Below are positions 32,493-33,429 of a stretch of DNA of 33,767 nucleotides, in pieces. Source of the DNA: Candidatus Magasanikiibacteriota bacterium. GTDB lineage: Bacteria; Patescibacteriota; Patescibacteriia; Magasanikbacterales; GWA2-37-8. The stretch spans positions 79,911-113,677 of the forward strand of contig JACPGS010000029.1 in the NCBI GenBank assembly GCA_016189025.1, read 5' to 3'. A program made the translations under genes and the position numbers. How positions within the stretch are numbered: the stretch's first letter is position 1; every line of letters starts with the position of its first letter. The notes beneath the pieces were generated by a model, which was not told the origin of the DNA, made no database searches, and saw nothing but the letters and a program-made list of their open reading frames with translations.

Positions 32493-32608
32493 GGGCAGGT
32501 TGTGGATTAGTTTTAGAGAGACATTTGGTAGCATATTTGACGAGATAGGCAGTTAATAAGTGCTGTATTAATAACAAGCTTAACATTTTGTAGGTAAATC
32601 GTCAAAAC

Positions 32609-32671
32609 AAAAAACCGCTCTCACTCTGGCCGCAAACGCGTTGCGGGCAAAGTGAGTTGGAGCGGTTTTTT
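32609..32671. terminator. Long bidirectional terminator downstream of the zinc-ribbon gene
   Basis: AAAAAACCGCTC TCACT...GCCGCAAACGCGTTGCGGGC...AGTGAG..GAGCGGTTTTTT. Confidence 0.8.
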
Positions 32672-32726
32672 GCTTGCCCAACCCACTCATTCATTTTTCA
32701 CTTCCTTTCAGGTAAGTGGGTGGGCT

Positions 32727-33107
32727 TTAGTACATGTCCGCGCCGGTCGTGGTCGAGCGCGGCACGTCCGCTTCGGCCACGAACTTGTCGCCGATTAGGA
32801 CGATGCGGCTGTCCTCACGTCGGCACTCGTGCCGAACGAGCAGGTTCGTGGCCGGAGTCCATTGCGGACGCGGCGGAGTTGCCATGTGCGCGGACGAGTC
32901 ACGCACGAACGGGTGCTGGCCATTCTCTTTTGCACCAGACAAGTATTCCTTGATGCAGTCCTGGCCGGAACAAAAGCCATACTCGTCCATGACGTGATCG
33001 GTACGCTCCTTCCCACACGCGGGACAAACGGAAATGAGGTTCCTGATTTCCATCTCCGTTTCCTTCCCGCAGTGCGGGCACACGTACGAATGACCTGCGT
33101 AACCCAT
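32727..33107 (-). CDS. Small zinc-ribbon protein
   Basis: YVCPHCGKE...ISVCPACGKER (CPxCG x2) and FCSGQDC; SD GGAGG before ATG. Confidence 0.8.
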   Translation of the reverse strand: MGYAGHSYVCPHCGKETEMEIRNLISVCPACGKERTDHVMDEYGFCSGQDCIKEYLSGAKENGQHPFVRDSSAHMATPPRPQWTPATNLLVRHECRREDSRIVLIGDKFVAEADVPRSTTTGADMY

Positions 33108-33175
33108 ACTACCTCCATTTTCTGTTCAGGGACGTGCTGAACGCACAAAGCCTTCCATAATTGGAAGGCTCCGTT

Positions 33176-33273
33176 GAAGGTCTTTCAGAGCGGCAAGTGG
33201 ACAAATGGGTCAACAAAAGCCACTACCGATGAAAGACCTTCGAAGGAATCTTCCAGCATAAGTGACCCATTTG
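33176..33273 (-). ncRNA. Candidate pseudoknotted leader RNA of the zinc-ribbon gene
   Basis: GAAGGTCTTTCA(33176-33187)/TGAAAGACCTTC(33230-33241), inner AGTGG/CCACT, loop CAAATGGGTCA(33202-33212) pairs with TGACCCATTTG(33263-33273). Confidence 0.65.
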
Positions 33274-33280
33274 CGCACAT

Positions 33281-33310
33281 AAAAAACCGCCCGACTTGAA
33301 TCGGACGGTT
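33281..33310 (-). terminator. Intrinsic terminator upstream of the zinc-ribbon leader
   Basis: Minus strand AACCGTCCGA-TTCAAG-TCGGGCGGTT-TTTT. Confidence 0.75.
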
Positions 33311-33400
33311 TGAAATTTTGAAAAAATCAAACTACCAACTCAAGACGGAGTTGGCATAAGAATATGAATTTTGGCAAAGTGTGAATTTCATAACACTAAT

Positions 33401-33429
33401 AATATAGCACATTTTGTGAAAATTGTCAA
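33401..33429 (-). promoter_or_regulatory. Near-consensus sigma70 promoter with extended -10
   Basis: TTGACA-N17-TATATT, preceded by TGC at -10. Confidence 0.75.

Follow-up and report, generated by a model that had tools for sequence, protein, structure and literature searches.

A pseudoknot RNA behind a leader-peptide attenuator in Patescibacteria, a candidate second stage of transcription attenuation

The window analysed here, a 33,767-nt stretch of a Candidatus Magasanikiibacteriota contig, carries towards one end a minus-strand gene for a 126-residue zinc-ribbon protein. On that strand its 5′ leader runs from a promoter through a leader peptide, a terminator (T1), a pseudoknot and a second hairpin (T2) to the gene, with the following parts.

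33401-33429, minus: promoter-like site TTGACA-17-TATATT (11/12), with TG before the -10 box; relatives share its spacing to the ATG
33332-33391, minus: leader peptide ORF MKFTLCQNSYSYANSVLSW, 19 codons, near-leaderless, its ATG 9 nt behind the -10 box
33333-33356, minus: attenuator 1:2 hairpin TGCCAACTC-CGTCTT-GAGTTGGTA
33284-33311, minus: terminator T1, AAACCGTCCGATTCAAGTCGGGCGGTTT plus a T-run (regions 3:4)
33263-33273, minus: pseudoknot helix 5′ arm CAAATGGGTCA, conserved in position and covarying
33250-33255, minus: P1a 5′ strand TGGAAG, antiterminator-like, partner 33162-33167, from the covariation alignment
33243-33247, minus: P1b 5′ strand, partner 33170-33174, covarying
33230-33241, minus: P2 5′ strand GAAGGTCTTTCA, perfect stem, covarying
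33220-33224, minus: P3 5′ strand AGTGG, covarying
33215-33219, minus: CTTTT, the U-rich junction next to the pseudoknot 3′ arm and ahead of it; CUUUU or a near variant in most copies
33202-33212, minus: pseudoknot helix 3′ arm TGACCCATTTG, conserved in position and covarying
33196-33200, minus: P3 3′ strand CCACT, covarying
33176-33187, minus: P2 3′ strand TGAAAGACCTTC, perfect stem, covarying
33162-33174, minus: P1b and P1a 3′ strands, of which 33162-33172 doubles as the T2 5′ arm
33147-33172, minus: hairpin T2, GGAGCCTTCCA-ATTA-TGGAAGGCTTT, terminator-like, with a weak U-tract in the window
33124-33142, minus: third hairpin GTTCAG-CACGTCC-CTGAAC, with no counterpart seen in relatives
33112-33116, minus: Shine-Dalgarno sequence GGAGG, read directly
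32727-33107, minus: regulated gene, zinc-ribbon protein with N-terminal CxxC motifs, below family cut-offs

Strong terminator-like hairpins flank the zinc-ribbon gene on either side (32605-32675 and 33284-33311) and end in AACCGC/GCGGTT, and a gene for an NYN-domain protein (PF01936; 31844-32401, minus) lies downstream of it. We take the minus strand to be the relevant one because it reads into the zinc-ribbon gene, has a near-consensus promoter and scores higher with the covariance model described below (94 bits, as compared with 50 bits for the plus strand). The plus-strand RNA folds too (z = -5.6), and as the functional form it is disfavoured by the gene direction, the promoter, the leader peptides and the higher minus-strand model score. 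Coding overlap was likewise rejected as an explanation of the pseudoknot region; an open frame does run through it in the window, and across the copies no reading frame stays open.

The helices picked out by the first-pass annotation are all present: a perfect 12-bp stem (P2, 33176-33187/33230-33241), exactly where it had been placed; the inner AGTGG/CCACT stem (P3, 33196-33200/33220-33224); a perfect 11-nt complementarity of the apical loop, which forms the interleaved helix 33202-33212/33263-33273; and two further hairpins, AGCCTTCCA-ATTA-TGGAAGGCT and GTTCAG-CACGTCC-CTGAAC. Its judgement that such pairings are unlikely by chance is borne out by shuffling and by a scan of the window. A perfect helix of at least 12 bp arose in 1 of 3000 dinucleotide shuffles of the pseudoknot segment and an interleaved 8+8 pair in none of the 3000; the pseudoknot is the only interleaved pair of at least 9+9 within the 33.8-kb window, no interleaved 11+11 pair occurs in 20 shuffled windows, and the 211-nt minus-strand leader has an MFE z-score of -6.3. 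The Rfam scan (release 15) that had been proposed finds no family at the gathering threshold over the pseudoknot in the window or in 13 relatives, and at relaxed thresholds there is no convincing match to the element; the Rfam matches in the scanned sequences are tRNAs and one group I intron, all outside it. This intron (RF00028, 858-1194) lies close behind a tRNA gene in L027:704-1194.

Six relatives were recovered by a DNA search in the order together with a protein search, and a covariance model built from the resulting seven sequences was used to find further copies, giving 13 beyond the window, all of them in Patescibacteria. They lie mainly in the window's own family (Magasanikbacteria), plus scattered distant families: the covariance search places the RNA in 9 of the 86 genomes of the order, in one genome from elsewhere in the phylum and in two further families of the class. 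A second model (R2) yielded no new copies in searches of the orders of G745, G308 and G482 and of the family. Two viral contigs (L033 and L034) gave pattern matches only, with the second half and the pseudoknot absent, and were discarded. All 14 copies lie just upstream of a gene and in line with its direction, and all have a pseudoknot helix of 10-17 bp joining the apical loop to the strand just upstream of the stem. The helix sequence varies between copies (GGGTCA, AGGTCA, ACTTCA, TATCCC, AGGCAA, ACGCCA, TTGAGC), and in some loci it is individually non-significant against shuffles (58/300 in L028 and 31/300 in L029). We nonetheless regard it as conserved, because its 3′ arm falls at a constant place, offset 35-43 of the core, in 14/14 copies.

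Covariation of the full structure, pseudoknot included, was scored on an ungapped composite alignment (A4), from which one bulged C was omitted in each of L019 and L026. Because complementarity and the model were used to place the arms in A4, its counts lean towards the structure; with that proviso, 94.2% of paired cells can pair and 30 of the 38 pairs show two-sided changes, the corresponding values for the pseudoknot helix being 99.3% and 8 of 10 pairs. The covariation score of 0.585 compares with a mean of 0.195 in shuffles, none of 500 of which reach it, and with at most 0.144 for controls in which the structure was slid along the alignment. Compensatory changes are seen in every helix; for example, one P1b pair is UA in ten copies and CG in four, and another occurs as AU, UA, GC, GU and UG. 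The check on homologs thus came out opposite to the result that the first-pass annotation had named as refuting its proposal, and we conclude that the pseudoknot element is a genuine family of structured RNA in Patescibacteria, one absent from Rfam. Three observations strongly support the annotation's suggestion of a cis-regulatory RNA: the element keeps its position before genes, each of its helices shows compensatory changes, and the base of its stem faces a competing hairpin. We regard this role as close to certain.

The genes downstream of the 14 copies are mutually unrelated. Zinc ribbons follow the RNA in the window and L019 and a small CxxC protein in L020; a haem-oxygenase-like protein (PF14518) follows it in L028 and L023, a PPDK_N protein (PF01326) in L029 and L025, and a threonyl-tRNA editing domain (PF08915) in L032 and L030, the second locus of each pair being assigned by sequence likeness to its scanned partner. 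The remaining genes include several unknowns. The stand-alone, archaeal-type PF08915 domain lies under the RNA in two distant families, with an Asp/Glu racemase coming after it in L030, and it is possible that this gene and its regulator RNA are a horizontally moved cassette. The zinc-ribbon protein (P0001) is found in 2/86 genomes of the order, has one relative only and has no useful relative in the PDB. Since the RNA precedes unrelated genes and the protein is so restricted, the two are independent of one another, and the proposal that the RNA is a partner of the encoded protein fails. Like a type III toxin-antitoxin system, to which the annotation had loosely likened it, the locus has a pseudoknot RNA ahead of a small gene. 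Tandem pseudoknot repeats leading up to an attenuating terminator, and a nuclease resembling ToxN, were both looked for in the window and are absent, in keeping with the annotation's own remark that the protein is not a recognised ToxN. The order it gave, promoter, structured RNA, terminator and gene, also differs from that observed, as the terminator (33311-33284) comes before the pseudoknot and not after it. With unrelated genes downstream as well, either a toxin-antitoxin-like RNA or a partner of the zinc-ribbon protein is already contradicted and scarcely credible.

The module upstream of the pseudoknot has a short ORF, control codons, a 1:2 hairpin and a terminator, as leader-peptide attenuators do. 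All 14 operons contain a leader peptide, directly upstream of the pseudoknot in 12 and at the start of the operon in two, and the control codons are usually those for Tyr/Phe, Trp or Leu/Ile/Val. Peptides directly upstream include MKNQIQQSAMYYFSHSILELC (L019), MKMAKIAQVNAYYYAVPS (L027), MKKLTQKINSMSWWAKLFLV (L029), MKNFKILNTSWCWTVPPR (L023), MNNLNQKFAVSIIIIGS (L022) and MTKHNLSISNVVIINLLAPMG (L020), all written here up to the stop codon. The pseudoknot is inside the operon in L026, where the first gene is preceded by MKQQSIQIQAWYSNRTPLESR, and in L030, where it is behind MHNQSFYFSFWFTPSRLRGWF and a chorismate mutase gene, itself a link to amino acids. A TrpR (PF01371) gene is directly upstream of the Trp-codon leader of L029, and that of L025 is likewise beside a trp-repressor gene, as judged by the same sequence motif. 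A mechanical scan found 10 promoter-leader-terminator sets in 141 kb, compared with about 0.9 in shuffles. T1 is at the same place in relatives with unrelated sequence, and in the window the Tyr codons 10 and 12 sit just ahead of the 1:2 hairpin. Complementarity of region 2 to the T1 5′ arm (region 3) is clear in L020, L027 and L032; in the window it amounts to 7 bp, which 24% of shuffles match, and in most other loci too it is individually non-significant.

Attenuators of the same type are also seen elsewhere. Those at L013:1236-1355 (MQPNHSNQVFFYFTSPGSGGGDCGC) and L011:1501-1660, reverse (MKLCLTAQLTVWFYTAPPGLAR), have no pseudoknot and precede small or unknown genes, and leader-peptide attenuators seem to be common in this lineage. 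A near-leaderless leader ORF at L046:5892-5990 (MIFMVRQCVSSSSSGIEAG) has five consecutive Ser codons and a strong terminator after it, and looks like a serine attenuator. At L047:4319-4931 the aromatic leader peptide MHNQSFYFSFWFTPSRLRGWF precedes a small ORF and a chorismate mutase gene (PF01817), and this, judged from its sequence, is a Phe/Tyr/Trp attenuator in a Patescibacterium.

The base of the long stem is closed by P1a (GGAAG/CUUCC, with GGAAG conserved), the 3′ strand of which is the 5′ arm of T2, the hairpin behind the stem, such that the putative expression platform shares a strand with the sensor domain. P1a and T2 are therefore mutually exclusive. Six copies carry C in place of U at core position 90; all six have a G in the T2 arm, and the A is kept in P1a, leaving an A-C mismatch that weakens the antiterminator. 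As the T2 partner follows the change and that of P1a does not, T2 pairing is under selection in its own right. Calculated without a pseudoknot energy model, the P1a and T2 states lie within about 7 kcal/mol of each other in 11/14 copies, and the sign of the difference varies among copies; duplex energies are -2 to -6 kcal/mol for P1a, -11 to -20 for the pseudoknot helices and -7 to -23 for T2. Behind the stem, 13/14 copies have a predicted T2-type hairpin, and a run of at least four T comes after it in about 8/14; T2 may terminate transcription, though perhaps not in every copy, as the U-tract is weak or missing in the window and five other copies, L019, L025, L030 and L031 among them, and in L023 the T2 match is lost. 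Pseudoknots are able to block nucleases, and such copies could be taken to mean that the pseudoknot, lying towards the 5′ end of the mRNA, stabilises it or blocks exonucleases, with T2 simply a stabilising hairpin. We consider this distinctly unlikely, as it leaves unexplained both the complementarity of the T2 arm to P1a in nearly all copies and the U-tracts where they occur.

The linker from the pseudoknot 5′ arm to P1a is 0-7 nt in 12/14 copies and the stem has about 35 stacked layers; on geometric grounds, a closed pseudoknot and a closed P1a therefore probably cannot coexist, whereas opening P1a frees 8 nt, with which the 5′ arm could reach the apex. In L020 and L021 the linker is longer, at 28-39 nt, and comes with an extra hairpin; there the two could coexist, and these copies argue against the exclusion.

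Our preferred reading, to which we give a probability of roughly 0.6, is that transcription of the zinc-ribbon gene is attenuated in two stages within its 5′ leader, the pseudoknot forming the second, and a two-stage mechanism seems likely. The first stage would be a classical ribosome-mediated attenuator: region 1 would be covered by a ribosome stalled on the Tyr codons of the leader ORF, region 2 would then pair with region 3, and polymerase would pass T1. In the second stage the pseudoknot RNA would choose between the antiterminator P1a and T2, a closed pseudoknot opening P1a and releasing T2 (off) and an open one leaving P1a to serve as antiterminator (on), with the balance presumably set by a ligand or factor. 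Full expression would then require both amino-acid shortage and a second signal. The copies named above for a poor T2 U-tract, and L023, count against this model, as do the A-C mismatch of P1a in six copies, the varying sign of the energy difference and the unconvincing region 2 complementarity at several loci, the window included.

The pseudoknot could be a metabolite aptamer, and so a candidate new riboswitch class; this would specify the second signal of the two-stage model, and we hold it as a possibility falling short of an even chance. The bound state would be the compact pseudoknot, in which the CUUUU junction forms a U.A-U triplex with AAAU/AUUU of the pseudoknot helix, and the ligand a general starvation or nucleotide signal common to all of the regulated genes. 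Conservation beyond base pairing among the copies (GGAAGAU, CGAAG, CUUUU, AAAU) is consistent with this, one RNA before unrelated genes suggests a common small signal, and the published tandem T-box(Leu)/ppGpp leaders (PMC9481103) are a working precedent for an amino-acid sensor joined to a second signal; however, the gene contexts converge on no single metabolite, and the copies are only 14 and scattered. Alternatively, the pseudoknot could be the binding site of a regulatory protein, either a leader-binding antiterminator or an RNA-binding regulator, rather than of a small molecule. The long conserved stem, with its symmetric internal loops and conserved mismatch, is compatible with protein recognition, as are the diverse gene contexts, but no candidate protein gene accompanies the RNA, and the window's zinc-ribbon protein, missing at most other loci, is excluded from that role; we think such a site unlikely.

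This structurally well supported family of 14 copies is very probably an undescribed RNA switch beside a classical amino-acid sensor; a search of the open-licence literature found no cis-regulatory RNA class or leader-peptide attenuator described from Patescibacteria. It suggests that amino-acid attenuators persist in these gene-poor bacteria with a second RNA switch stacked behind them, and the signal of that switch would reveal what else they monitor during amino-acid shortage. A bolder and rather doubtful extension is that it is a new Patescibacteria riboswitch class for a general starvation signal, forming with Tyr, Trp or branched-chain leader attenuators a two-input AND gate on accessory genes moved between distant lineages.

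In H-type pseudoknot riboswitches such as SAM-II, preQ1 and fluoride, a hairpin loop pairs with a flanking strand, a U-rich loop lies by an A-U-rich helix and the terminator shares a strand. The RNA described here resembles them in all three respects, and differs in having no convincing Rfam match, a much longer stem and a pseudoknot arm upstream of the stem. Its first stage resembles classical trp, phe and ilv attenuators in the short ORF with Trp, Tyr/Phe or branched-chain codons, the 1:2 hairpin, and region 2 near the stop with a terminator 20-45 nt on; unlike these, the Patescibacteria ORFs are near-leaderless, have a pseudoknot module behind them and mostly do not precede biosynthetic operons. 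The LEU element of actinobacterial leuA leaders, in which the Leu codons lie in the base stem and are paired to the Shine-Dalgarno sequence (PMC1262725), likewise combines a leader peptide with a conserved pseudoknot and an alternatively folded state in the leader of amino-acid genes, but here, in another phylum, the pseudoknot forms a module of its own behind T1, with a terminator-like T2, a distinction drawn from the description of the element. The tandem T-box(Leu)/ppGpp leaders (Sherlock 2018, reviewed in PMC9481103) are read as AND gates, and like the window's leader they combine in series a sensor of amino-acid starvation with a second RNA switch, each with its own expression platform. 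There is no Rfam T-box match in the window or the 13 relatives, and by the features tested the pseudoknot RNA belongs to neither the LEU element nor the T-box(Leu)/ppGpp leaders; relative to the latter, the amino-acid sensor is here a leader-peptide attenuator and the second RNA an undescribed pseudoknot.
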